Below, one piece after another: positions 617-31,144 of a DNA stretch of 37,152 nucleotides (the stretch's first letter is position 1; every line of letters starts with the position of its first letter). Below the pieces are notes generated by a model. That model searched no databases and was not told the origin of the DNA. It saw nothing but the letters and a program-made list of their open reading frames with translations. Both the position numbers and the translations under genes were made by a program. The stretch comes from a virus, in IMG/VR virus record IMGVR_UViG_3300010371_000073, positions 1 through 37,152 of that record; one strand, 5' to 3'.

Positions 617-1036
617 ATGATTGAAATATCACAATTTTCTGGTGATTACAGGTGGTTATCTAATTTCTATATTGAACCAGATGGTACTCATGTGGAAGGG
701 GAATACCAATCTTCTAAATGTTTGGATCCAAAGGATAAAGAAAAATTCATTGGTTTAACTCCAGGTCAATGTAAAAAACTTGGTAAAACCATTTCAATAC
801 GTTTGGATTGGGATATTATTAAAAATGACATTATGTATCAGCTTGTAAGGAAAAAATTTACTGAACACGCCGGATTAACCGAGAAATTACTTTCTACAGG
901 TGATTCAATATTGATAGAAGGTAATAATTGGAATGATACCTATTGGGGAATTTGTAATGGTATTGGATCCAACCATTTAGGTAAAATTTTAATGATGATT
1001 CGGAATGAATTGGTTTTTCATCCATTTTTCTCTTGA
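617..1036 (+). CDS. NADAR-domain (YbiA-like) protein, probable ADP-ribose glycosidase
   Basis: A single NADAR domain fills this 139-residue protein. The family start FSGDYRWLSNFY is at residues 7-18, the YQSSK helix follows near residues 31-35, and the C-terminal signature YWGICNGIGSNHLGKILM is present. NADAR proteins are N-glycosidases; some remove ADP-ribose from guanine in DNA and act as antitoxins to DarT, while YbiA/RibX acts on riboflavin intermediates. In a phage, a role in undoing DarT-type defence or in NAD metabolism is plausible but not shown. The usual 'EHxYQ' motif reads GEYQ here, so the histidine is missing and activity should be checked. The TGA stop lies inside the -35 box of the next promoter. 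Confidence 0.8.
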   Translation: MIEISQFSGDYRWLSNFYIEPDGTHVEGEYQSSKCLDPKDKEKFIGLTPGQCKKLGKTISIRLDWDIIKNDIMYQLVRKKFTEHAGLTEKLLSTGDSILIEGNNWNDTYWGICNGIGSNHLGKILMMIRNELVFHPFFS

Positions 1037-1061
1037 CTTTTTTACCAGATGATGGTATATT
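1033..1061 (+). promoter_or_regulatory. Sigma70-like promoter with TTTACCA motif, leaderless
   Basis: TTGACT (1033-1038), a 17-base spacer and TATATT (1056-1061). The spacer opens with TTTTTACCA. Exactly 6 bases separate the -10 box from the ATG at 1068, so transcription should start at or next to the start codon. The same layout occurs at 25955, 26371 and 26797. Confidence 0.75.
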
Positions 1062-1067
1062 TTAATC

Positions 1068-1421: not shown

Positions 1422-1463
1422 AAAATGCTCTATTGGAGGAGCGCGAGGAATAAGGAAGTGAAC

Positions 1464-1631
1464 ATGTACAGTGACATAATGGACGACCCTCCCTATACGG
1501 GAGAGACATACAAGCGCCTGCTGAAGATGGCGGTGGAGGCGCTGGAATACATATCTCAATGGGGATTCCATGAAGCAGGCGGTCGCGCGTGTAAGGCTCT
1601 CGCCGCAATCAGGAAGGAGTTGGAGGAATAA
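1464..1631 (+). CDS. GC-rich foreign-looking small helical protein
   Basis: I place the start at the ATG at 1464, preceded by AGGAATAAGGAAG, rather than at the upstream in-frame ATG at 1425. The product is 55 residues and ends ACKALAAIRKELEE. The helical pattern 'YKRLLKMAVEALEYI...AC.ALAAIRKEL' is common in small phage and bacterial proteins of unknown function. The DNA is strikingly richer in G and C than its surroundings (CGCCTGCTGAAGATGGCGG, GCAGGCGGTCGCGCG) and uses G/C-ending codons, unlike neighbouring genes, which points to recent acquisition. The region just upstream, from about 1430, is GC-rich too. Confidence 0.65.
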   Translation: MYSDIMDDPPYTGETYKRLLKMAVEALEYISQWGFHEAGGRACKALAAIRKELEE

Positions 1632-12002: not shown

Positions 12003-15000
12003 TTATTTACTTAATGTTACAATTCTAAACGTTTTTATTTGAGGTACTTGCGTTGAATCACTAGATCGGAAAGCAATTTTTACTTGAATTTGTGTAAAAT
12101 TATCTATATTATTTACTTCATAAACCAAATCATTAAATGTAGTATTTGATGAATTATCAACATAACCAGGAGATAATTCTAATTTAGTGTACTGTAACGA
12201 ATCAAGTGTTCCAGTGAATGAAACTGGTAAAACTCTATAATATACATCTACTTTTGCTTGAGAAGGTCTTAATAATTCAAAATAAACACGTAATGAATTC
12301 GCAGGTGAAGATAATGTAATAGATTTTTCAATATATTGTGATGGATTTGTACAATTTCCTGCTGCCAGATCGGAAACAAAACCATTATAATAATTAATTG
12401 TGATTGTGTCACCTGCGGTATGTGTACCTAAAGTAATGTCATTAGTATCTAAAATAATTTTTTTGTTGATTAAATCTATAGAGGCAATTCGAATGAGATT
12501 TGGATAAGCCTTATTATTACCTGTAACACTAGATCCTGATATTGAAATATATCGATCAGGTAAATAATTATTAAAATTAGAAGAGGTCCAATTAATGGAA
12601 TTATCTGTATTATTAAAGGAAATATCCGTACCAATAACCTTATTTTCTAATTTATTATCAAAACCATCAATATTCACTGATGATGGAATACAATTATTAA
12701 TTTTATTAGAAATAGCTATTGTACCAATTCTTGTTAAATCAATTACAGGACTAACATTGGTATTATTAGATGTTAAAACAGCCTTTAAAACCAATGATTT
12801 TTTATCTAATACTGTAATACCACTAATATTATTTTGTTCATTTAATGTAGAGGCTATTACCTTTGGTGATTTTTGTACAATATTTTGATTTACATTAATA
12901 TTTGAAAAATTAATATCTTTAATATAAGGTACTTGATCACCATCAACACTTTTTGTTGAAGTTGTTTGGATTGACCATGTAATATCGGTATCACGTGGTA
13001 CAATTTGATCTATATAAGGATATAATAAATCATAAGGGACATTTTTTGTAATTTGGATTGCATTTGTTGGTCCAGTTAATCCAGAAGCATATGCGGAGGT
13101 ATTAGGAATTTGGATTGTAATCCAATCATTACCAATATTTTGTACCTGATAATTTTGAGAACCAAGTAAAACTGGTGAAATATTAGGTGTAATTGATTGA
13201 GCAGGAATACCATTATATAAAGATGTATATTCAGATGATGGAATAGTAATATTAACTGTAGATCCAATAGTTAAACCATGTGAATAAGTATTCAAATTCA
13301 TATCACCAGTTTTTCTAAAATATATTTTTAAAAGATTACTATTTTTTGAAGTTTCAAAGGGTAATTCACCTAATGGCCATAATAATTCTCCTCCTAATAA
13401 TGCTCTTTGGACATCATCATTAGTAAAATATAATGTAGCTGAAGATGAAAATTGAGCATAATCAAGGGTTAAATAAAGAAATTCATCATCAACAGGTATC
13501 CATTGTGTAAAATTGGTTGGTTTATATAAACTACCAAGATTTGCAGCTTTATATGCAACAGTTTGGACATTTGTTGCTGTTTGACCTACAACCGCAGTGG
13601 CAATTTGATATTGATTAGAATTAGTTATGAATGAAATTGCGTAAGATGTATTATTTTGTAAATAAATTGGTTGTTTAAAAACAATTCTTGAAATAGTAGG
13701 TAAAACATATGCAAAATTAACCGAAGGATTACCTGATGTGATACTAGGGTATAAAACTACCTCAGATCCAGGAATAATTGTAGAACTTGGAATACCATTT
13801 TGCAATTCTCTCAATTGAACGATAACTGGAAATGTAGTATCTACATTTGTAAATGCTACGTTCATCGCTGTTAAGAATATTCCACCTGGCTTATTTTGTA
13901 CAGAAAAAATTTGGCTTAATGGATTAGATCCTTCATTTCGAATAATATTAGATTCTTGCGTACTAACTATGTTTTGTTGGTTAGAATCTAGTAAACCAGC
14001 CATTGTGTAATAAGAATTGGCCGCGGTAGATGGTAAAGTTAAACTGTCAGTTAATTGGAATAATTTTTTACCAGTTTTAATATTCATTTTTTCATTCACA
14101 TATAAGTAACCAGAATATTGTCCTAATGGGTTTGTAATTAATACATTAGTGGTATTGGGTGCTAATGCTTTTGGTAAAGCAGTCACCCTATAATTAACTA
14201 ATAATCCACAAGGACCAGAATTTGATCCAGTATTAGTCAATACAAAATCTAAAGTATTCAAACCAAATTTAAAAGCTGAGGTATTTTGTAAATTAATAAT
14301 AACAAAATTTTCTATATTTACCGCAAAAAATCCACCTTGGGTTGCGATTTGTTCACCATTCAAATTAATTTGTGTAATATTGTCCGAACCTATTCTAATA
14401 GAAAGAATAGCTGTAGCAGCTTCAAAATTTGTTAAATCAAAAGTAGTTCTGAAAGTAAAAGTACCGGCGCTTGTTAACCCAGCAGGACTAGGTGAAATCC
14501 ATCTCCAAGTTCCATCCTCAGGTGCCCATGGAGGATTACCAAAAACAACGGCAGGATTTATTACATATGCTGATGGACCTGGATGCAAAACATCTGTACT
14601 AGATGTTATTGTAAATGTCTGATCAATTGATAGATACGGTAATAATGTACCATCACTCTTAGTTCCAGTTGCTCCTGATTTAACTAATGAAGAAATCCAT
14701 TGTGTAACATCAGTATTATCCAAAAATGCACGGATTGGGGTATAAGGTTTTAATCCATCTGCTTGAATTCTAATAAGCTGTTTATCAGGAAAAGGAATAT
14801 AATCAATACCAATACTATTATTATTAACTATATGAGTAATAGAATTTGAATTAACTGGTATACTATTGACAGGAGTACCAAACCATTCAGTTTGCCATTC
14901 GTTCCAAACAGTTGATATTGCTTTTGTTTGATCTGGGGTATTTACCACACCATCAAACATATTATTTTGATTATAAACAATGTTTGGTCTAATATCGGTA

Positions 15001-18000
15001 TTTTTCCAATAATCACTATATTTGGAAAGCCAACATGTACCAATATATGATTTTAAATTAAATGGATTTAAATTTTCACTATTTGTAATAAATGGACTAT
15101 TTAAATATGGTACTGAATTATAATCAATTGTTACTAAATTATTATCATTCATACCAGTATCAAATTGACCGGCTATAACTGGTTGATGTAATTTATAACC
15201 CGAACTAAAATTTTCTTGGATAACTAAAGGAACATTAGTAGATTCATAGCTTGGTCTACAAATTTTATAATTTGGATCAATCGAAACTTTGTAATCTCCA
15301 TTTTGAGTATCAGCGATATTGGTACCATTAAACGGATCAACAATGAAACCGTTTTTAAATAATTCCAATCCACTTTCATTATCCGTAATAACTAAATTCG
15401 CTGTTTCTTGTTCTAATAAATTTAGGGAAGCATAATATTCTAATGTCGAGACTCGCCGTTCTATGGAACCAATTTCTCTAAATGTATATCTTTTATTTTC
15501 AATGAAGGTTACCTGGACATCACTTGGTGAAAAAGTATAAGGTGGTATATTAAGGACATATAATACCATTCCATCATCTGGATCTGCTGGAGAAATAGGA
15601 TTATCTGCAGATAATCCTTTAATAACATTAAATTTCCCAGTTCCATCTAATGAAATTTTATCAATTCTACCTAAATAATATTGGTAATCTAAAATAATAT
15701 TAGTATTAAAATCAATGTAATTAATTAAATTAGAACCAGGACTCCAAGTGTCATCAATATCTGGTCTAAAATCTAAACAATCTCGTAAATTAAAATCTTG
15801 AAAAGAAGGAATATTTTCATACCATTCTGATGTACCATCAAAATTGGTATAAGAGTCTACACTAAAATAATCACCATTTCCAGTATGGGAAAAATAAGAA
15901 AAGGTAATTTTGATACTAGAAGTAGAAGCAGGTGATTGTTGGTTTGGTGATAAAGTAATTTTACCTTTTGTATATCTAGTATCTCTCTGACCATTATCCA
16001 AAATATATCGTGTTGTAATATCTTGTTGTAAACCAGAGACAGGTACCTCTATGACACTAATTAATTTATAAATATCAAATTGATCCAAAGAAATTTCATT
16101 TGAAGGTGATGCTGTAATTGTTGTATTTGTTAATGTTTTAGTTTTCTCGGCCGATGTTTTGAAAATAGTTGCACTTAATTTAACAATGTGGTTTCCTGCT
16201 GGAATATTAAAAGTTACAGTAGTTTCACCGTTTGATATTTGAAAACTAGCTGTAGATAAATCTAAAATTTCTCCCGTATCATCAAGAGAAGCAATATAAT
16301 CATTTACTGAAAATGGAACAAATGTTTCATTTGTTCCACAATTAAATGAAACATTTGTTCCATTTGTGTTTGTAGTAAACGTTCTACGAATAAAATAGGC
16401 GGTATCAGTTAAGCCATTATCCGAACGTAAGGTACTAATTCCAGTGCGATCTAGAGAATAAATCATAGAATTTTCACTAGAATTAAAAACATTAACATAT
16501 CCTACGATTGTGGTTGTTGAACCACTTCCAGTTGTGGCTACTGCACCTGGAAAAAATCGTCCGGAAGTCGGTTCAACTAAAATTTGAGATTTATTTGCAT
16601 CATAAGTGATAACCCTATGGCTTACACTGTTTAAAGTAAGAATATCACCTGTATTAATGGGTCCGACAGTGTTTCTCACATTCATAGCTAAAACCATATT
16701 AGCAGTACATGAAACTGTACCAATTAAAGCATTTTGGACAAAAATGGATCCAGCGTTAGCAGGATTACTGGAAGGACCAGGAGGAAAAGATATATTTTTA
16801 ACATATAATTTATAAACAGGATAAGGAAATGAATCAGAACCTATTGTACCACTAACATATTCACAACCAATAACATTTGCAGTTCCCATAGCTATACCTG
16901 AAGCAACACCGTCTGAAGATATCAAATTATTATAAAAAGTTAAAATTGGTGTTTTTTCAAAGGAAGGAAATGAAAATAATCTATCAACCAAAATATAAGG
17001 AGCATCAGGTATAGAAACTAATGAGTTTTGAATTTGTTTTGTATCTCTGGCTTTATCTACCGATACAAATTGGGTAGCGATAGTTTGAATACGTTTACCA
17101 TCTACATAAGCAGTAGATGGTTCTAATCCAACAGCTAATTTTGTAGGATCACCTCCTTGTGATAATGTAAATATTCCATCAGGAGTTTCATCAGATAATA
17201 AATGTTCTCTAATATCAATTTTAAAAGGATTTAAAGTGAAATTTCCATTAGTTTCAAAAGTTCTTTGATCGATTTGGTCTTCAATAACATTAAACTGAGT
17301 TTGTGTTACTTGTGATTGAATAGCACCATTAACAACCTGCATTAATTGGACAAATTTTGATCCATCAATTGTTGTATTTGGTAATTCTTTGGATAAAACT
17401 AAATCAATTTGGTATCTATCTGCACCAGGTGCTAAAAAATTTGTAGTACCTGAAGCATTATCAAATAATGAATTATCTTCATCCACGGTAATAATATTTT
17501 CATTTACAGCCAAACCAACAATATAATTTGAAATATTTGTATATTTGTCTAAAATAATTGTTTGGGCATCAAAATAAACAAAATAACCGTTAATATAAAT
17601 TACACCTGAATCAATAGAGGCGGCCGAGCCATTTCCTACTACACTTGTTGTTCCAATTGAAGGTGTGGTAGAAACATTTGCTACTAAGGCATTTGTATTA
17701 ACTAATGTTAAACTATCACCAGTATTAAAAGTTTGAGAGAAATCTGAACCAGATGCAGCATATTTAACAAATATAGTATCTAAATCATTTCCTAATGCAC
17801 GTGTAGCATTAACAATAGTAGCCGAAACTCCTAATGAATTAACTAAAGTTAGTTGTTTACCAATATTAGAAGCATCATTTGGATTAATTACAGCAAATTG
17901 TGTATCCGTTAAAGATGCTAATTGTACATAAGAATATTTGGTATCTAAAGTAATATGACCAGGGACAATTATTGATCCATTAACAAAAATATTATTACCA

Positions 18001-18152
18001 AATCTTTTAATTTGATTAGCAATAATTGATTGAAGTTGGTTTAATTCTCTTACTTGTACTGATACTCCAGGTTTAAATAAGATTTGGAAAAACTTCTTAT
18101 TTTCCTGATAATCATCAAAATAAGGATTTACACTAAATGGCTGTAAAGACAT
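12003..18152 (-). CDS. Giant DUF4815 virion structural protein
   Basis: This 2049-residue protein is the largest gene in the window. The N-terminus (SVNPYFDDYQENKKFFQILF, KPGVSVQVRELNQLQSIIAN, QIKRFGNNIFVNGSIIVPGH) is the DUF4815 signature found in large structural proteins of T4-like marine phages. The middle is beta-rich, with Ser/Thr/Asn-rich repeats and a likely jelly-roll carbohydrate-binding segment around WRWISPSPAGLTSAGTFTFR. The C-terminus (AKVDVYYRVLPVSF ... FTQIQVKIAFRSSDSTQVPQ) is a receptor-domain-like fold. It follows gp8, so it probably attaches to the baseplate wedge as a fibre or fibre-anchoring protein. A 22-bp perfect inverted repeat lies within it. Confidence 0.8.
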   Translation of the reverse strand: MSLQPFSVNPYFDDYQENKKFFQILFKPGVSVQVRELNQLQSIIANQIKRFGNNIFVNGSIIVPGHITLDTKYSYVQLASLTDTQFAVINPNDASNIGKQLTLVNSLGVSATIVNATRALGNDLDTIFVKYAASGSDFSQTFNTGDSLTLVNTNALVANVSTTPSIGTTSVVGNGSAASIDSGVIYINGYFVYFDAQTIILDKYTNISNYIVGLAVNENIITVDEDNSLFDNASGTTNFLAPGADRYQIDLVLSKELPNTTIDGSKFVQLMQVVNGAIQSQVTQTQFNVIEDQIDQRTFETNGNFTLNPFKIDIREHLLSDETPDGIFTLSQGGDPTKLAVGLEPSTAYVDGKRIQTIATQFVSVDKARDTKQIQNSLVSIPDAPYILVDRLFSFPSFEKTPILTFYNNLISSDGVASGIAMGTANVIGCEYVSGTIGSDSFPYPVYKLYVKNISFPPGPSSNPANAGSIFVQNALIGTVSCTANMVLAMNVRNTVGPINTGDILTLNSVSHRVITYDANKSQILVEPTSGRFFPGAVATTGSGSTTTIVGYVNVFNSSENSMIYSLDRTGISTLRSDNGLTDTAYFIRRTFTTNTNGTNVSFNCGTNETFVPFSVNDYIASLDDTGEILDLSTASFQISNGETTVTFNIPAGNHIVKLSATIFKTSAEKTKTLTNTTITASPSNEISLDQFDIYKLISVIEVPVSGLQQDITTRYILDNGQRDTRYTKGKITLSPNQQSPASTSSIKITFSYFSHTGNGDYFSVDSYTNFDGTSEWYENIPSFQDFNLRDCLDFRPDIDDTWSPGSNLINYIDFNTNIILDYQYYLGRIDKISLDGTGKFNVIKGLSADNPISPADPDDGMVLYVLNIPPYTFSPSDVQVTFIENKRYTFREIGSIERRVSTLEYYASLNLLEQETANLVITDNESGLELFKNGFIVDPFNGTNIADTQNGDYKVSIDPNYKICRPSYESTNVPLVIQENFSSGYKLHQPVIAGQFDTGMNDNNLVTIDYNSVPYLNSPFITNSENLNPFNLKSYIGTCWLSKYSDYWKNTDIRPNIVYNQNNMFDGVVNTPDQTKAISTVWNEWQTEWFGTPVNSIPVNSNSITHIVNNNSIGIDYIPFPDKQLIRIQADGLKPYTPIRAFLDNTDVTQWISSLVKSGATGTKSDGTLLPYLSIDQTFTITSSTDVLHPGPSAYVINPAVVFGNPPWAPEDGTWRWISPSPAGLTSAGTFTFRTTFDLTNFEAATAILSIRIGSDNITQINLNGEQIATQGGFFAVNIENFVIINLQNTSAFKFGLNTLDFVLTNTGSNSGPCGLLVNYRVTALPKALAPNTTNVLITNPLGQYSGYLYVNEKMNIKTGKKLFQLTDSLTLPSTAANSYYTMAGLLDSNQQNIVSTQESNIIRNEGSNPLSQIFSVQNKPGGIFLTAMNVAFTNVDTTFPVIVQLRELQNGIPSSTIIPGSEVVLYPSITSGNPSVNFAYVLPTISRIVFKQPIYLQNNTSYAISFITNSNQYQIATAVVGQTATNVQTVAYKAANLGSLYKPTNFTQWIPVDDEFLYLTLDYAQFSSSATLYFTNDDVQRALLGGELLWPLGELPFETSKNSNLLKIYFRKTGDMNLNTYSHGLTIGSTVNITIPSSEYTSLYNGIPAQSITPNISPVLLGSQNYQVQNIGNDWITIQIPNTSAYASGLTGPTNAIQITKNVPYDLLYPYIDQIVPRDTDITWSIQTTSTKSVDGDQVPYIKDINFSNINVNQNIVQKSPKVIASTLNEQNNISGITVLDKKSLVLKAVLTSNNTNVSPVIDLTRIGTIAISNKINNCIPSSVNIDGFDNKLENKVIGTDISFNNTDNSINWTSSNFNNYLPDRYISISGSSVTGNNKAYPNLIRIASIDLINKKIILDTNDITLGTHTAGDTITINYYNGFVSDLAAGNCTNPSQYIEKSITLSSPANSLRVYFELLRPSQAKVDVYYRVLPVSFTGTLDSLQYTKLELSPGYVDNSSNTTFNDLVYEVNNIDNFTQIQVKIAFRSSDSTQVPQIKTFRIVTLSK
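16311..16365. repeat. 22-bp perfect inverted repeat inside the DUF4815 gene
   Basis: Bases 16311-16332 (starting AAATGGAACAAATGTTTC) are the exact reverse complement of 16344-16365, with an 11-base loop. The encoded peptide is itself repetitive (FTTNTNGTNVSFNCGTNETF). The left arm also contains an internal palindrome, GGAACAAATG-TTT-CATTTGTTCC. In the mRNA it would form a very stable hairpin in the middle of a long coding region. Confidence 0.85.
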
Positions 18153-24768: not shown

Positions 24769-25332
24769 ATGAATGTAAATCCAAACACATTAGGTGTTTT
24801 AAATCAGCAACCAAAAACTTTTAATCTTTCACAAGCCGGATTAAAATTTAGAGTATTAATTGATAGATTACCAAATACCGTTTTCTTTTGCCAAAATGTA
24901 ACACTACCTGGTATGAGATTACATATTGCTACTCAACAAACACCTTTTCAACCAATACCGCATCCTGGTACCAGTTTGGAATATGATGAATTTCAAATGG
25001 AATTCATGGTGGATGAATTATTTCAAAATTACATGGAAATTTGGACATGGATGAATGGTTTAGGTGCACCAGCGGACAGAAGTCAATATGCATCTTTAAA
25101 AAATGAAAATTTGGAATTAACTAGTCAATTTGGTGGAATTAAATCACCAGTCACTTTATTAATGTTGGATTCTCAGTACAATCCAATTGTAAAATTTACT
25201 TACACAGATGCATTTCCAGTATTTTTGAGTAATTTGGATTTAGATACCAAAAAAACTGATAGTGGATATTTAATGTGTTCTGCATCTTTTGCCTATACCT
25301 TACAAGAAGTTGACAACCAAGGTCCTTTTTAG
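24769..25332 (+). CDS. Tail-tube-fold virion protein
   Basis: This 187-residue protein has KFRVLIDRLPNTVFFCQNVT, LPGMRLHIATQQTPFQPIPH, EFQMEFMVDELFQNYMEIWT and FTYTDAFPVFLSNLDLDTKK. I recognise this as a conserved virion protein of marine T4-like phages; the beta pattern and the 'lPG...F.VDE...NY..I..W' region suggest the gp19/gp48/gp54 tail-tube fold. The exact T4 counterpart is uncertain (gp54-type tube initiator is possible). It is divergent from gp25 and is the only structural gene on the + strand. Its 3' end overlaps a strong promoter. Confidence 0.6.
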   Translation: MNVNPNTLGVLNQQPKTFNLSQAGLKFRVLIDRLPNTVFFCQNVTLPGMRLHIATQQTPFQPIPHPGTSLEYDEFQMEFMVDELFQNYMEIWTWMNGLGAPADRSQYASLKNENLELTSQFGGIKSPVTLLMLDSQYNPIVKFTYTDAFPVFLSNLDLDTKKTDSGYLMCSASFAYTLQEVDNQGPF

Positions 25333-25338
25333 TATAAT
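25310..25338 (+). promoter_or_regulatory. Consensus sigma70 promoter for tRNA-Asn and uvsY
   Basis: TTGACA (25310-25315), 17-base spacer, TATAAT (25333-25338): a perfect match to the bacterial consensus. It overlaps the last codons of the tail-tube-like gene. Transcription should start near 25345. The next 78 bases contain possible small hairpins (AGTCG...CGACT, GAACGTACGGTTC) before the tRNA. Confidence 0.85.
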
Positions 25339-25423
25339 AAAAGAGTATTAATAGCATTGTTTCCAAGATCGAAAGTCGGAGTTTAACCTTTACACGACTA
25401 CACGAACGTACGGTTCATAATAT

Positions 25424-25499
25424 TGGCAGGTACTTTAATAGGTAGAAGGACGGTCTGTTAAACCGTTAGTTGTAGGTTCGATTCCTACCCTGCCAGCCA
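25424..25499 (+). tRNA. tRNA-Asn (GTT), CCA encoded
   Basis: This folds as a standard 76-base tRNA. The acceptor is TGGCAGG with CCTGCCA, followed by discriminator G and an encoded CCA (25497-25499). The D arm is CTTT...AAGG, the anticodon stem ACGGT/ACCGT with loop CTGTTAA (anticodon GTT, 25457-25459), and the T arm GTAGG-TTCGATT-CCTAC. It reads AAC/AAU asparagine codons, which are very common in this Asn-rich virion proteome. It is cotranscribed with uvsY from the 25310 promoter. Confidence 0.95.
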
Positions 25500-25508
25500 A
25501 TTTTTTTT

Positions 25509-25946
25509 ATGACATTAGATCAAATCTTTGATGAAATCAAAAAAGACTTAGGTAAATTAGATTTATCACGTCTAGCTGAATATTCCGCAGAAAATACCTA
25601 TCTATTTAATAAATATCACAAAACCTACCGAATTGCTCGAAAAAAATTAAGACAATTACAAAAGCAAGAAATCATACTATTATCAGAATTGGATCAATAT
25701 TATGAAGGGACGGCGGATGAAGAAGTTGTCAAGAGAAAAGGTATTCTTGATAAAAGATTCAAATTTAAAGATGGTCGAGATAAAGCCATAAAAAGTGATA
25801 ATGAATACATAGATTTATCTGATAAAATACATGACCAGGAGGAGATTGTAGAGACTCTAAAAGAGACCATGCAAGCAATCCGAGATAGGCAATGGAACAT
25901 CCGAAATGCAAATGAATCCTTGAAGTTTACTCAAGGAAATGTTTAG
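25509..25946 (+). CDS. uvsY: UvsY recombination mediator
   Basis: This 145-residue protein is close to T4 UvsY (137). Matching features are LAEYSAENTYLFNKYHKTYR, LRQLQKQEIILLSELDQYYE, GTADEEVVKRKG, and the C-terminal ETMQAIRDRQWNIRNANESL with KFTQG. UvsY helps UvsX recombinase load on gp32-coated single-stranded DNA and is needed for recombination-dependent replication. It is helical and basic in parts. It starts ten bases after the tRNA and is probably cotranscribed with it. UvsX is not in the window. Confidence 0.85.
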   Translation: MTLDQIFDEIKKDLGKLDLSRLAEYSAENTYLFNKYHKTYRIARKKLRQLQKQEIILLSELDQYYEGTADEEVVKRKGILDKRFKFKDGRDKAIKSDNEYIDLSDKIHDQEEIVETLKETMQAIRDRQWNIRNANESLKFTQGNV

Positions 25947-25954
25947 ATTTTTAC

Positions 25955-25983
25955 TTGACAATTTTACCATAACAATCTAAAAT
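25955..25983 (+). promoter_or_regulatory. Sigma70-like promoter with TTTACCA motif, leaderless
   Basis: TTGACA (25955-25960), a 17-base spacer opening with ATTTTACCA, and TAAAAT (25978-25983). Six bases separate it from the ATG at 25990. Same architecture as 1033, 26371 and 26797. Confidence 0.75.
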
Positions 25984-25989
25984 GTGTTC

Positions 25990-26157
25990 ATGAGTATTGA
26001 AGATTTATCAAAATTAACTCTAGAAGAAGTGTATCCAAACCCACATCTGGAAGATTTAGATGATGATTTGGATTTACCACCTATTAATGATGATTCACAA
26101 TATTTTGATTTGTGGATTCAAGAGGATGAATATGCCAGTAGCGAATCAAGTTTTTAA
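25990..26157 (+). CDS. Small acidic protein expressed from a leaderless promoter
   Basis: This 55-codon gene starts MSIEDLSKLTLEEVYPNPHL and is strongly acidic (DLDDDLDLPPINDDSQYFD), ending YASSESSF. Small, very acidic phage proteins often act as DNA mimics or bind basic host proteins, but nothing here shows that. The promoter at 25955 puts the +1 at its ATG, which supports the start. The 3' end overlaps the start region of the next gene. Confidence 0.6.
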   Translation: MSIEDLSKLTLEEVYPNPHLEDLDDDLDLPPINDDSQYFDLWIQEDEYASSESSF

Positions 26158-26347
26158 ACTTTTTCATGAATGGAAAGTATATTATCAAGGTAGAGTCTGT
26201 TGTCCATCTTTCAATTCAAAAGGTGCGGCACAGGTTTATCTTGATATGATTCTAAATGGTCAACGTAAGCCAGAGTACGGTATTTCAAGCAAGGAAGCTT
26301 TAGCCATGGCAAATAAAACCATGGTTGATATAAAAAGTGGTATTTGA
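26132..26347 (+). CDS. Hypothetical small protein
   Basis: I choose the ATG at 26132 because AGAGG lies six bases upstream; an ATG at 26126 and a longer upstream frame are alternatives. The 71-residue product starts MPVANQVFKLFHEWKVYYQG and contains CCPSFNSKGAAQVYLDMILN and YGISSKEALAMANKTMVDIK. It overlaps the acidic gene by 26 bases. No family is recognised. A TTTACCA promoter follows its stop. Confidence 0.55.
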   Translation: MPVANQVFKLFHEWKVYYQGRVCCPSFNSKGAAQVYLDMILNGQRKPEYGISSKEALAMANKTMVDIKSGI

Positions 26348-26370
26348 ACCATTTTTGTTGGTTTTAGATA

Positions 26371-26399
26371 TTGACAAATTTACCATTTGGTGTTTCAAT
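26371..26399 (+). promoter_or_regulatory. Duplicated TTTACCA promoter (weak -10)
   Basis: TTGACA (26371-26376), a 17-base spacer opening with AATTTACCA, and TTCAAT (26394-26399), six bases before the ATG at 26406. The upstream segment (TTGGTTTTAG(A/G)TATTGACA) is shared with the promoter at 26797, so this looks like a duplicated copy whose -10 box has drifted. Confidence 0.55.
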
Positions 26400-26405
26400 T
26401 GATAT

Positions 26406-26723
26406 ATGAGATACCCAAAAAGTTATGTTATACCGTTTGAAGGAATTGATTATTATACCCGGAGACCTTTGCAAATCTTGGAACGAAGGCCCAAGACCCC
26501 TCTAGATGAAAAATGGATCGACGCAATCGTGAAGTTAGGGCCTACTGCCTCATTCACCGTCAATGTGATCGAACTTTTGAGCGGCTGGTTTAATTCGCAT
26601 ATGATTCGAATTACGATTCAACTTGCTCGCCAAACCAGCCGCTCATTGGAATACCATCAATACGCGTTCTATACGCATAGGGATATACGGAAAACCTTAG
26701 ATAAAATGATCGCTGGTCTTTGA
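26406..26723 (+). CDS. Chimeric ORF: duplicated phage segment fused to GC-rich DNA
   Basis: This 105-codon frame starts MRYPKSYVIPFEGIDYYTRR. The part VIPFEGIDYYTRRP is encoded by a 45-bp exact copy of a piece of the gene at 26832. From about 26470 the DNA becomes GC-rich, with the product LQILERRPKTPLDEKWIDAI and on to THRDIRKTLDKMIAGL, which has no relation to the rest. It holds a 14-bp perfect inverted repeat. No family is recognised. It may be a non-functional scar of illegitimate recombination, a new fusion gene, or an insert whose real product is in another frame or is an RNA. Confidence 0.45.
   Translation: MRYPKSYVIPFEGIDYYTRRPLQILERRPKTPLDEKWIDAIVKLGPTASFTVNVIELLSGWFNSHMIRITIQLARQTSRSLEYHQYAFYTHRDIRKTLDKMIAGL
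26425..26469. repeat. 45-bp exact direct repeat, copy 1 (partner 27436-27480)
   Basis: The block starting ATGTTATACCGTTTGAAGGA is identical, base for base, to 27436-27480 and is read in the same direction. It is followed here by GC-rich DNA and in the partner by the normal continuation of the 26832 gene. Confidence 0.9.
26578..26645. repeat. 14-bp perfect GC-rich inverted repeat with 40-base loop
   Basis: TGAGCGGCTGGTTT (26578-26591) and AAACCAGCCGCTCA (26632-26645) are exact complements. The loop holds TTCG-rich segments. It lies inside the GC-rich insert. It could be a terminator from a donor genome, mobile-element ends or a structured RNA. Confidence 0.8.
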
Positions 26724-26796
26724 AATTTCACAGAACAGGACCACAGTTTTGCGGAATATTAAATTAGTAAAAGTTTAAAAAAATTGGTTTTAGGTA

Positions 26797-26825
26797 TTGA
26801 CAAATTTACCAGTTTAGATTATATT
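26797..26825 (+). promoter_or_regulatory. Sigma70-like promoter with TTTACCA motif, leaderless
   Basis: TTGACA (26797-26802), a 17-base spacer opening with AATTTACCA, and TATATT (26820-26825). The ATG at 26832 is six bases further on. Same architecture as at 1033, 25955 and 26371. Confidence 0.75.
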
Positions 26826-26831
26826 GGATAC

Positions 26832-27668
26832 ATGATGAACGAAACACCAAAACATGAATTTGAAAAAGCTGGTCTTGGTCAGTATCCATATGTATTTCGT
26901 GGCATACAAGAAAAGAAATTCCAAGCGGTTCCTGGAGACAAGGATTGTCCAATTCAACCAGGTTCTTCATGTGATTATTGCGGAACCGCCATCATGTATG
27001 AATTTTGGTTGGAATCTGCTGATGGAAAACGGTTCAAAGTTGGCTGTGATTGTGTATGTAGAACAAACTCCGATCCAGCATTGAAAGCCCAAGCAAAAGC
27101 GGAACAAAAGCGAATTGCAAAAGAAAATCGTGTAAATAAAGCAATTGCCCGACGGAATATTCAAAGAGCAAAATGGCAAGAAGAAAAAAAGGCGGCTCAA
27201 GAAAATTTTGTTAAAGACAATGCGGAATTGATTGAAAATCTTCAAAAATATTCTGAAACTAATTATTTCCTGAAAAACCTACTGTTCAATTTCAATAAGT
27301 ATGGTTCATTGACCGAAAAACAGGTTTCTGCGGCGGTGATTGCTATTGACAAAATGAAAATGGAATTAAACAAAAAACCGTCAGAACATGTTGGAAATAT
27401 TGATCAACGAACAACGTTTACTTTAACTGTTAAAAATGTTATACCGTTTGAAGGAATTGATTATTATACCCGGAGACCTTGCACACAGTATATTACGATT
27501 CTTGAAGATGAAAGTTACAATGTATTTGTTTACAAATCATTTCTTGAAAAAAAGGGTACTGTATTAGAAGTTACGGCAACCGTTAAGGATCATACAGAAT
27601 ATAAGGGTGTAAAGCAAACGATTATCCAAAGACCAAAAGTGGTAAAGATAATCAAGGAGGAAGAATGA
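26832..27668 (+). CDS. Zinc-finger phage protein with C-terminal OB-like domain
   Basis: An upstream TTG would extend it through its own promoter, so I choose the ATG at 26832; the product is 278 residues. Near residues 30-70 is a zinc-binding segment, CDYCGTAIMYEFWLES followed by RFKVGCDCVCRTN. A long charged helix follows (QAKAEQKRIAKENRVNKAIA). The C-terminal part (TTFTLTVKNVIPFEGIDYYT ... VTATVKDHTEYKGVKQTIIQ, ending near RPKVV) is beta-rich, of the type seen in phage proteins that carry 'h..y.g.kqT...RPk'. Function unknown; nucleic-acid binding is plausible. It overlaps the next gene by four bases. Confidence 0.7.
   Translation: MMNETPKHEFEKAGLGQYPYVFRGIQEKKFQAVPGDKDCPIQPGSSCDYCGTAIMYEFWLESADGKRFKVGCDCVCRTNSDPALKAQAKAEQKRIAKENRVNKAIARRNIQRAKWQEEKKAAQENFVKDNAELIENLQKYSETNYFLKNLLFNFNKYGSLTEKQVSAAVIAIDKMKMELNKKPSEHVGNIDQRTTFTLTVKNVIPFEGIDYYTRRPCTQYITILEDESYNVFVYKSFLEKKGTVLEVTATVKDHTEYKGVKQTIIQRPKVVKIIKEEE
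27436..27480. repeat. 45-bp exact direct repeat, copy 2 (partner 26425-26469)
   Basis: Second copy of the 45-bp block. Here it is inside the conserved C-terminal domain of the 26832 gene, so this copy is probably the original and the one at 26425 the duplicate. Confidence 0.9.
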
Positions 27669-27934
27669 TTGCATCTTGTTATTCAATGGATTTATATTGC
27701 AGACACTGGGAAAATATAAAACATCCTTATAATTATTTTCCACACCAATTTACCGGTGAAACGTTGTCAGAATGCAAGAAACAAGCAATTAAAAAGGGCT
27801 GGATTTTTCATAAAGATGGTGAAGTAACCTGTCCATTATGTGCAAAAAATCATAAAAAGGAAAAGATAGGATTTAAACCAAAGAAAATTGACAACCAAAC
27901 ATTTGGTTGGACTGATGTCATAAAAAGGAATTAA
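27665..27934 (+). CDS. Small zinc-site phage protein
   Basis: This 89-residue protein starts MIASCYSMDLYCRHWENIKH and contains FTGETLSECKKQAIKKGWIF, HKDGEVTCPLCAKNHKKEK. The pattern 'YsMDLYC......f.geT..eC.k.A...GW....dG...CP.C' is shared with many small phage proteins. The cysteines and histidines probably bind zinc. It is translationally coupled to the upstream zinc-finger gene (ATGA overlap), suggesting a joint role. Function unknown. Confidence 0.7.
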   Translation: MIASCYSMDLYCRHWENIKHPYNYFPHQFTGETLSECKKQAIKKGWIFHKDGEVTCPLCAKNHKKEKIGFKPKKIDNQTFGWTDVIKRN

Positions 27935-27939
27935 AAAAA

Positions 27940-28248
27940 ATGAAATTATTAGAAGCCTTACAGAACGCTTTAGAATTTATGGAAGCAAATGGATATAAAA
28001 ATGGTGGTGATATCCATGATGATTTACAGTTGGCTATTCACACTATTCAAAACAAATTTCTTAAAGTAGGAAATGAAGAAATTTTATCCAATTATGAAAA
28101 AGAACAACCTACCAACTATATAGGTGAAATGAAACATAGATTTTTACCAAGAGCAAATAGTTGGAATTTCAAATCTGATAAACAAAATTGTATATTATGT
28201 GGTTACCGAAAAACAGATGCAATTCATGATTTAAATGATCCATTATAA
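27940..28248 (+). CDS. Hypothetical protein with C-terminal CxxC
   Basis: This 102-residue protein begins with a helical part (MKLLEALQNALEFMEANGYK) like small phage helical proteins. The middle holds EEILSNYEKEQPTNYIGEMK, and near the end is a possible zinc site, CILCGYRKTDAIHDL. It is the last gene of the + strand accessory cluster and converges with the gene at 28254 across a shared hairpin. Function unknown. Confidence 0.6.
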   Translation: MKLLEALQNALEFMEANGYKNGGDIHDDLQLAIHTIQNKFLKVGNEEILSNYEKEQPTNYIGEMKHRFLPRANSWNFKSDKQNCILCGYRKTDAIHDLNDPL

Positions 28249-28268
28249 ATCTGTTAATGGATAGTTTT
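28238..28268. terminator. Likely bidirectional terminator between convergent genes
   Basis: ATCCATTA (28238-28245), a nine-base loop and TAATGGAT (28255-28262) form a perfect 8-bp stem, followed by AGTTTTT on the + strand. Both neighbouring stop codons lie within or beside it. The T-run serves the + strand transcript best. Confidence 0.55.
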
Positions 28269-28808
28269 TCTATGTTTTCGATCAATAGGAACAGTCAAAT
28301 TATCATCTGGCTCATTAATAATTTTTAATAGTTCATCCTGTTCCTTTTTCTTTTTTTCAGCCTCTTCTATTTCTTTTTTAGATTCGTCATCCAACTGTTG
28401 CATTTTGGCAACATAAGAATCCAATAATTCATCATTTGGAAATGCGGTGGTTAAAATATGTTGACGATGGAGGACATAACATTCATCGTCAGACATTTCT
28501 ACCAAAGGATGGAAGCAAGGAAATATTTTTTTACCAAACAAATTGTATTGGATATCAGTGGCTAATTCCAAATGAAACATATATGGATCAAAAACTGTTA
28601 ATAAATTTATTTTTTCGTCCATAAAAGCCATAAAATCGTCTTCATCAATATGTCCGATTACATTTGTACCATTTGATAAAACTAATACCATTGGTATATA
28701 CTTATAATCTGGTTCTTCAATTTGTTGTATTTCTTTTTCTTCCAACTTCTTTAAAACCTCATTTCTTGTATAAATTACTATTATACTATTTCGGAACCTT
28801 ATTGTCAA
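28254..28808 (-). CDS. LSm-like conserved phage protein
   Basis: This frame encodes 184 residues from a TTG that overlaps the 3' end of uvsW. The core (VLVLSNGTNVIGHIDEDDFM, LLTVFDPYMFHLE, and PCFHPLVEMSDDECYVLHRQ followed by HILTTAFPNDELLDSY) matches a family of marine T4-like phage proteins with an Sm/LSm-like pattern ('l.nG..viG.i...', 'i.i...hIlt...P...l...Y'). The C-terminus is a Glu/Lys-rich coiled coil. The start is uncertain: a consensus promoter at 28780-28808 covers the first codons, so a shorter form starting downstream may be made from that promoter. Role unknown. Confidence 0.6.
   Translation of the reverse strand: MTIRFRNSIIVIYTRNEVLKKLEEKEIQQIEEPDYKYIPMVLVLSNGTNVIGHIDEDDFMAFMDEKINLLTVFDPYMFHLELATDIQYNLFGKKIFPCFHPLVEMSDDECYVLHRQHILTTAFPNDELLDSYVAKMQQLDDESKKEIEEAEKKKKEQDELLKIINEPDDNLTVPIDRKHRKTIH
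28780..28808 (-). promoter_or_regulatory. Consensus sigma70 promoter (- strand) in the uvsW 3' end
   Basis: On the - strand, TTGACA (28808-28803), a 17-base spacer, and TATAAT (28785-28780): a perfect consensus. It overlaps the uvsW stop. Its expected +1, near 28773, falls inside the annotated start of the LSm-like gene. Confidence 0.8.
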
Positions 28809-30300
28809 TTTTTACCTTATGAAAGGTAATTTTATATTTCTCTTGAAAGTAAATCTTAACACAATACAGAAAATGCTTATAGGTAGTATTGGACTTTTTC
28901 TTATAAACTAAATTATCACCAATATGGTAAATAGTGGCAGTAGTTTTGGTTTCAGAAATTCTTCCAGTTCTACCTAAGGATTGCTTTAACCGAATCAACG
29001 ATTTTACCGGATGAACCAAAATTAAATTGTGAAGATTACGGATCGATACTCCTGCTTGAAATACTTGAAAAATAGCTAAGATGATGGCATCTTTTTCGGT
29101 TTCTACAATCTCACGAATTTGATTTCTAATATCTGCTTTTGTTTTACCATTCACTAAAAATACATTTTGCTTACCAGATTTCTTGACAATTTCATCATGC
29201 AAATACTTACCATGTGAAAGCCTACCAAATAAAATCAATGTATTACCAGATTCTTTACATACTTTCAAAGTTAAATTCCGGATAAATTGATTTCTACTTT
29301 TGTGTGCAATTAACCAATTGATTTCATCCGCATATTTTATTCCTTGGAGTTTTTTACATGTTTCTTCGGGATATTGTAATTCAAGAGTTTTAATAGTGGT
29401 ATCAGCTACTTCACCACGATCCATTAATTCTTTCGTAGTACTGAATACCTTTGCCTTACCTAATACCGCTTCAATGGCTAAAGAATGTGCTTTAGCTTCC
29501 TGGAGTGATCCAGTGGTACCAATTCTATATCTAGCATTCACACATTTATTAGCAATACCTTGCAGGCTTTTAGCTGCCGCGGTCTGTACTTCATCAATAA
29601 TCAAACAATCAAAATTCTTAAACCAAATTGGTTTTAAATTGTATAATGATTGCCATGTAGAAATTACCACTTTTTTATTAGTGTTTTTTTCTTTACCAGA
29701 ATAAATTTGATGGCAATACTTTTCAACCTTAAATCCATTATGAGATGAATAATCCTGAAAATCGGTATACATTTGACCAACTAAGGATATTGTTGGTACA
29801 ATCAAAAGAATATTTGCATTCTCTTTTTCAAGTAATCTTCTGGTAATCATATATAAAACTAAGGATTTACCGGAAGATGTTGATGATACAATAACACCTC
29901 TTTTATTTTCTACTATATAATGAGTAGAGGATATTTGATAATCTCTAGGAGTAATTGCTTTCTTTTTTGAATGTACATTAAGAGAATTACAATATGTTTC
30001 AATTTCTTGTAAAGTAATTTTATTTGGTTTTAAAGTGTTTTCAATGTCAAGAGAATATCCATTCTCTTGACAAAAGGACTCTAGGTAAGAAATTAAACCA
30101 TTTGGAAACTGTAATGTTTTTCTTTGGAATAAATGAATATTACCATCCCAAACACCCAATCTGTACTGCGGCATGAATTGGTAATTTGGAACACGGAAGG
30201 TAAATTGAGAATCTATTTCATAAAGAATACCTTCATTAGACACATGAAGTTTGGAATATACTTCATTAATCTTTTCCAATCTTATGGTATCTTTATCCAA
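28786..30300 (-). CDS. uvsW: UvsW-like recombination DNA helicase
   Basis: This 504-residue SF2 helicase matches T4 UvsW (503) in length. Motif I is SSTSSGKS (residues 139-146), motif II IIDEVQ (235-239), motif III GTTGS (261-265), and motif VI QSLGRTGR (about 455). The N-terminal part (YRLGVWDGNIHLFQR) is the typical UvsW substrate-binding domain. UvsW unwinds R-loops and branched DNA, helping the switch from origin to recombination-dependent replication. The start is a TTG, since a stop lies five codons upstream and there is no ATG. A hairpin sits just before it, and a strong promoter lies at 30388-30416. Confidence 0.9.
   Translation of the reverse strand: MDKDTIRLEKINEVYSKLHVSNEGILYEIDSQFTFRVPNYQFMPQYRLGVWDGNIHLFQRKTLQFPNGLISYLESFCQENGYSLDIENTLKPNKITLQEIETYCNSLNVHSKKKAITPRDYQISSTHYIVENKRGVIVSSTSSGKSLVLYMITRRLLEKENANILLIVPTISLVGQMYTDFQDYSSHNGFKVEKYCHQIYSGKEKNTNKKVVISTWQSLYNLKPIWFKNFDCLIIDEVQTAAAKSLQGIANKCVNARYRIGTTGSLQEAKAHSLAIEAVLGKAKVFSTTKELMDRGEVADTTIKTLELQYPEETCKKLQGIKYADEINWLIAHKSRNQFIRNLTLKVCKESGNTLILFGRLSHGKYLHDEIVKKSGKQNVFLVNGKTKADIRNQIREIVETEKDAIILAIFQVFQAGVSIRNLHNLILVHPVKSLIRLKQSLGRTGRISETKTTATIYHIGDNLVYKKKSNTTYKHFLYCVKIYFQEKYKITFHKVKIDNKVPK
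30045..30072. repeat. 12-bp perfect inverted repeat inside uvsW
   Basis: TGTCAAGAGAAT (30045-30056), loop ATCC, then ATTCTCTTGACA (30061-30072). It lies in the N-terminal coding region, near residues 77-86. The right arm ends in TTGACA, but no suitable -10 box follows. Confidence 0.7.
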
Positions 30301-30541: not shown

Positions 30542-31144
30542 TTGTTGGAATTTACAGAGATTTATAAAAAAGATTTGGATTTTAGATATAAAAAACCATC
30601 AAAATATGCTTTTAAATCTTTATTTGAGGTTTTTAAAATAGAAACCAAAATAGAAAATGGTTGTTATGTTTGGTATGGTGAAACTATTAATAGTGGATAT
30701 GGAAGAGTTTATATTCCAACTATAAAAAAGAGATTATTAACTCATAGAGTATCTTATGCTTTTCATAATGGTTATTGTCCAGGAGATATGTTAGTTTGCC
30801 ATAGATGTGATAATCCACCATGTATTAATCATGATCATTTATTTTTAGGTACCGTTAAAGATAATTTAGATGATTATCATCAAAAACAAAATTTAAAAAT
30901 AAAAAAAGAATTAGAAAAATTTGAATTAATTAAAAATGTGTATGGTAATGATTCTTTAATCAGTAAAGTTGTTTATGATTTTTACCATAATAAAATTACT
31001 TTAAATGAATTAGCCAAAAAATATCATACTACGGTACTTGAAATTAGTAAAATGATACGTATGGAATATAACAATATTATTTCAGATCCAAAACCTTGGA
31101 CGGTTCGTGATCTTAATAAATTATATGATAAGGTTAAAGAGTAA
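30542..31144 (+). CDS. HNH endonuclease (homing-type)
   Basis: This 200-residue protein starts at TTG with AAGGAG five bases upstream. HNH core: LTHRVSYAFHNG, then CHRCDNPPCINHDHLFLGT (residues 86-104), with likely catalytic H87, N96 and H99 and zinc-ligand cysteines. A helix-turn-helix-like segment follows (ITLNELAKKYHTTVLEISKM, about 152-171), suggesting sequence-specific binding. It is a free-standing mobile endonuclease of the type scattered through T4-like genomes, here between uvsW and the gp55 operon, with its own promoter. No intron or intein is seen in the neighbouring genes. Confidence 0.88.
   Translation: MLEFTEIYKKDLDFRYKKPSKYAFKSLFEVFKIETKIENGCYVWYGETINSGYGRVYIPTIKKRLLTHRVSYAFHNGYCPGDMLVCHRCDNPPCINHDHLFLGTVKDNLDDYHQKQNLKIKKELEKFELIKNVYGNDSLISKVVYDFYHNKITLNELAKKYHTTVLEISKMIRMEYNNIISDPKPWTVRDLNKLYDKVKE

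Follow-up and report, generated by a model that had tools for sequence, protein, structure and literature searches.

How does a phage come to carry a short open reading frame (ORF) whose promoter resembles that of the next gene, whose front part contains an exact copy of a piece from inside that gene, and whose remainder is unlike the phage's own genes in composition? The question is raised by a 105-codon ORF in the contig analyzed here, a stretch of 37,152 bases that we refer to as the window. A preliminary description had proposed a duplication of the following gene with an internal deletion, combined with the capture of foreign DNA. Our analysis leads us to a different history. We think it rather likely that the ORF is a young chimera, put together by recombination within the plastic uvsY-uvsW region of a T4-like phage. 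Most likely, the patchwork is not a new system but a side product of recombination in the phage.

The ORF lies in a variable interval of a T4-like phage

The window has a T4-type gene content, including UvsY, a UvsW-type helicase, a late sigma factor, gp46 and gp47 homologues, a tail tube protein, and baseplate proteins. The locus sits between uvsY (25509-25946) and uvsW (28786-30300, minus strand), and its features are collected in Table 1. The UvsW protein shares 40 to 41% identity with its counterparts in Methylophilales phage Melnitz and Pelagibacter phage HTVC008M, and single-protein and alignment searches of all collections used returned nothing closer than 45% identity in UvsW. Exact DNA patterns taken from the copied block and the tail likewise found no close relative of the phage. 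The uvsY-uvsW interval varies among relatives, being empty in Melnitz, occupied by one unrelated gene in HTVC008M, and occupied by one small ORF in S-CAM7. The HTVC008M gene was considered as a homologue of the neighbor gene that follows the chimeric ORF and was rejected, as the two are not homologous. In T4, the origin ori(uvsY) consists of a middle promoter and an unwinding element (PMC3016281), and the location of our locus led us to consider such an origin here. A tRNA-Asn gene (25424-25499) lies directly 5′ of uvsY, and a perfect TTGACA-17-TATAAT promoter is found at 25310. An HNH endonuclease gene (30542-31144, plus strand; PF13392, E = 4e-10) adjoins uvsW and the late sigma factor gene, and a NADAR-domain protein is encoded at 617-1036 (plus strand; Pfam PF08719, E = 2.4e-20).

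Table 1. Features of the chimeric ORF, the neighbor gene, and the promoter-start modules (window coordinates)
Feature	Position	Strand	Remarks
Promoter-start module of the chimeric ORF	26358..26405	+	27/28 match to 26784-26811; architecture as in the three other modules
Chimeric ORF, 105 codons	26406..26723	+	7-residue start, 14-residue copied piece, 84-residue tail
45-bp block, exact copy	26425..26469	+	45/45 identical to 27436-27480, same frame
Compositionally foreign in-frame tail	26470..26720	+	84 codons counting the junction codon at 26469
14-bp perfect inverted repeat inside the tail	26578..26645 (arms 26578-26591 and 26632-26645)	+	about 1 such in 10 shuffled windows
Promoter-start module of the neighbor gene	26784..26834	+	TTGACA 26797-26802, TATATT 26820-26825, ATG 26832
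Neighbor gene, phage family of unknown function	26832..27668	+	phrog_2319, E = 1e-20
45-bp block, source copy in the neighbor gene	27436..27480	+	variable stretch of the C-terminal domain
Third promoter-start module	25955..25989	+	TTGACA-17-TAAAAT-6-ATG
Fourth promoter-start module	1033..1067	+	TTGACT-17-TATATT-6-ATG

The start of the ORF belongs to a family of four promoter-start modules

The promoter and start codon of the chimeric ORF follow the pattern TTGAC-W3-TTTACCA-N8, -10 hexamer, N6, ATG. The TTGAC-W3-TTTACCA core occurs at 1033, 25955, 26371, and 26797, that is, four times in the window against 0.01 expected. In all four modules the ATG begins 35 nt after the first T of the core, and the -10 position starts 17 bases past the -35 hexamer and is followed by six bases and the ATG. 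In the chimeric ORF, the -35 hexamer TTGACA (26371-26376) and TTTACCA (26379-26385) are followed by TTCAAT (26394-26399) at the -10 position, six bases, and the ATG at 26406. The other three modules have good -10 hexamers (TATATT, TAAAAT, and TATATT), whereas TTCAAT matches TATAAT at only 4 of 6 positions, and this weak -10 makes expression of the ORF uncertain. The two modules flanking the ORF are identical at 41 of 52 positions (26358-26409 versus 26784-26835), mostly owing to 26358-26385 and 26784-26811, where a single base differs. They also share 12 of 14 bases in the stretch upstream, compared with 4 to 6 of 14 for other module pairs, which makes them the closest pair of the four. The promoter had been described as duplicated from the following gene. 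The similarity is real, but with a core that occurs four times, each with an ATG at a fixed distance, the promoter is not specific to that gene.

Transcription from a sigma70 promoter begins about six bases past the -10 hexamer. With a -10-to-ATG spacing of six, it is predicted to begin at the A of the ATG, which would make the mRNAs from the four modules leaderless. Leaderless mRNAs from sigma70-type promoters are known, for example that of lambda cI from PRM. The modules resemble this case in having the -10 six bases from the ATG and a predicted start at the start codon; they differ in recurring at no fewer than four places of one T4-like genome fragment and in being leaderless by prediction. 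Among T4-like relatives, a strong promoter followed by an ATG at 6 to 8 nt was enriched over other short distances, with several cases before uvsY, although these counts are not independent because the sequences are related. Before uvsY itself, a -10-to-ATG spacing of 6 to 7 nt was seen in several of these relatives. We found no direct report of leaderless transcripts in T4-like phages or cyanophages in the literature searched, which does not prove their absence. For Melnitz, sigma70-type early promoters and no identifiable middle promoters have been described, and leaderless starts are not discussed (PMC9004378). If a start codon can work without a ribosome-binding site, nearly any fragment joined to it in frame could be expressed, and the promoter-to-ATG module with its predicted leaderless transcripts is therefore probably the more general observation made here.

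A 45-bp block shared with the neighbor gene precedes the tail

The preliminary description had noted an identical 45-bp block in the ORF and in the neighbor gene, and the two copies indeed agree at every position, lie on the same strand, and share a reading frame in which both read as VIPFEGIDYYTRRP. No exact repeat in the window is longer than this block (the maximum was 15 to 18 bp in 30 shuffled windows), and its flanks are identical at chance level, at 6 of 30 positions upstream and 5 of 30 downstream. In the neighbor protein, it precedes the conserved C-terminal motif ATVKDHTEYKGVKQT and lies outside it, in a variable stretch, and it thus looks like incidental filler that is unlikely to carry the function of the neighbor protein. 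The neighbor family is widespread, with 348 phage records found by tblastn. Its conserved C-terminal motif (phrog_2319 and related) is absent from the 105-aa ORF, which contains only the 14-residue variable piece and is therefore not a member of the family. One Roseobacter phage, CRP-902, encodes a shorter protein with homology to the neighbor protein in the C-terminal part only.

The ORF stays open across both junctions. The tail (26470-26721) has a G+C content of 44%, compared with a window mean of 30 ± 4%, and the term “GC-rich” that had been applied to it therefore holds only in a relative sense. Its in-frame continuation from the copied block and its difference from phage genes were both borne out: GC3 is 0.50, versus 0.19 ± 0.05 in 46 other ORFs, or about 6 standard deviations off, and a random tail of the same composition would be open in the given frame 1.4% of the time. 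A third junction placed at 26723 was merely the stop codon, and composition returns to the phage level nearer 26740-26770. The central claim is thus supported: under a phage promoter, the ORF joins a 45-bp piece of the neighbor gene in frame to DNA of foreign composition.

The 105-aa product had no match in Pfam, PHROGs, NCBIfam, PDB sequences, phages, plasmids, viral contigs, or bacterial and archaeal genomes. A known family matching the whole product, which the preliminary description had named as evidence to the contrary, was among the things sought and was not found. Nor did the phage, plasmid, viral-contig, or bacterial and archaeal genome collections yield a donor for the tail, although the scans of viral contigs and genome contigs used exact short peptides, so that distant relatives could be missed. 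Of the proposed capture of foreign DNA, the composition is therefore the part that points to a foreign origin. The tail was also considered as a diverged copy of the neighbor gene, which was rejected as the alignment was no better than shuffles, and as a segment of reverse-strand origin, which was dropped as genomes contained no relative of the 54-aa reverse ORF. An AlphaFold single-sequence model of the product (pLDDT 47; best Foldseek E = 0.23) was too low in confidence to count as a match to a known fold. A second small ORF of odd composition (1425-1631, plus strand; 68 aa, GC3 0.67) lies directly after a module-driven gene, and it had no relative in phages, viral contigs, Pfam, or NCBIfam.

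Proposed history of the locus

The flanking modules have diverged at 12 of the 34 bases that lie outside the promoter core, whereas the two copies of the 45-bp block differ at 0 of 45 (Fisher p = 1.1e-5). Diverged promoter copies next to an identical patch suggest that the two had different histories or were under different constraints. One duplication with an internal deletion would give both a similar divergence, and with this contrast and a promoter family of four the single-event origin proposed earlier is unlikely. In the simplest history, which we infer, the promoter module was in place earlier and the templated patch at the junction with new DNA is more recent; since no close relative without the insert turned up in the collections, the ancestral state and the direction in which the block was copied are likewise matters of inference.

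Transcription would start from the recurring promoter-start module, which would also provide the predicted leaderless mRNA with its ATG, and a compositionally foreign coding fragment would have been joined in frame behind the module. The join would carry the 45-bp filler, copied exactly from the neighbor gene about 1 kb downstream, possibly through template switching or strand invasion during UvsX/UvsY-type recombination. The phage encodes the recombination genes UvsY, UvsW, gp46, and gp47, and T4 UvsX together with the Dda helicase has been reported to be active in template switching (PMC3016280). As a gene, the ORF would be transcribed from the module at 26371 into a leaderless mRNA and yield a 105-aa product of no known fold. 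This product has probably acquired little, if any, selected function so far. The phage has UvsY, UvsW, and gp46/gp47, and the 45-bp block is present in it twice as a direct repeat; recombination between the two copies is therefore expected at some rate, and with it instability of the arrangement. Through such an event 1,011 bp would be lost, and the predicted product, in frame and 83 aa long, would consist of a short start and the C-terminal domain of the neighbor protein. If real, the locus shows with good resolution how recombination gives birth to a gene in a T4-like phage, in that its promoter, the templated piece at the junction, and the captured segment are individually recognizable. A far-reaching extension strikes us as quite improbable, namely that this T4-like lineage builds genes from foreign fragments behind a mobile leaderless promoter-ATG module that can do without a ribosome-binding site, that its recombination machinery mends the junctions with pieces of neighboring genes, and that the 105-codon ORF is one such gene caught mid-process.

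The most serious alternative, though an unlikely one, is that assembly, or template switching while the metagenome library was amplified, brought together the promoter, the 45-bp block, and the GC-rich piece. The record is a virus contig with abrupt joins; exact DNA patterns found its junctions in no other record, in a search from which the closest records may have been left out, and it contains a second compositionally odd small ORF at 1425-1631. However, two artificial joins would both need to preserve one reading frame, the ATG stands at the exact spacing of the other three modules, and phage sequence continues on both sides. The longest k-mers commonly used by assemblers exceed 45 bp, and the repeat is thus shorter than these. 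Also unlikely, and ranked next, is an older, ordinary small phage gene that was acquired whole with its own start and into which the 45-bp patch alone was later written by gene conversion. The intact promoter-ATG spacing fits this account, as does the identity of the patch next to diverged promoter copies, which would make the patch a later event. Yet the searches returned no homologue of the tail from which a native N terminus could be read, and conversion normally needs flanking homology, of which none is left (6/30 and 5/30).

Two functional readings of the locus carry much less weight. That the direct repeats are a selected switch, by which the phage would alternate between the full neighbor protein and a short C-terminal version expressed from the promoter at 26371, is very unlikely. 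The in-frame 83-aa deletion product would keep the conserved C-terminal domain, and some phages, such as CRP-902, have the C-terminal homology only, in a shorter protein; but the deletion is one-way and loses most of the neighbor gene, no recombinase site is recognizable, and the short product would start mid-domain. Least probable of all is that the GC-rich segment is a structured RNA built around the 68-nt hairpin at 26578-26645, with the 45-nt block serving as a sense decoy of the neighbor mRNA. The 14-bp perfect inverted repeat is rare in shuffles, and the fold z-scores are -2.0 on the plus strand and -2.7 on the minus strand. These scores are modest, however, no Rfam family was matched, other hairpins of the same size occur in the window, and the open frame and GC3 favor coding.

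Comparison with cassette shuffling in T4-type phages

Recombination giving rise to a chimeric ORF, as in the preferred reading, is similar to the promoter-cassette shuffling known from T4-type phages. The primary descriptions of these promoter-early stem-loop cassettes (PeSLs) are reportedly those of Arbiol et al. 2010 and Comeau et al. 2014. According to two published accounts, repeated cassettes of a promoter and a stem-loop promote the shuffling of small genes (PMC4503421, PMC3950731). The locus shares with PeSLs the T4-like phage background, the repeated promoter cassettes between small ORFan genes, and the position in a region of gene turnover; the repeated intergenic promoter is present in four modules, and copies of it flank the probable foreign ORF. 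The differences are that the module includes an ATG at a fixed spacing, that the join carries a templated 45-bp coding piece, and that no consistent terminator stem-loop accompanies the promoters. No terminator-like site was found on the plus strand in 25300-28300, and upstream of the four promoters there are only weak to moderate hairpins, which are mutually unrelated and lie mostly within the preceding coding sequence. Since the repeated promoters around an orphan ORF match and the stem-loop does not, we describe the locus as working like a PeSL rather than being one.

The turnover of orphan ORFs is also reminiscent of the “ORFanage” of the T4-like cyanophage S-PM2, where orphan ORFs are gained and lost and illegitimate recombination has been proposed (PMC4503421). 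There, a large block was lost and mispackaging was proposed, whereas here a single ORF carries a traceable 45-bp piece.

Besides the hairpin at 26578-26645, the window has two other long hairpins. A long perfect inverted repeat at 1660-1704 forms a 20-bp hairpin after a small-gene cluster, and the long ORF at 12003-18152 contains a 22-bp palindrome (15597-15618) and a hairpin with 22-bp arms (16311-16365).
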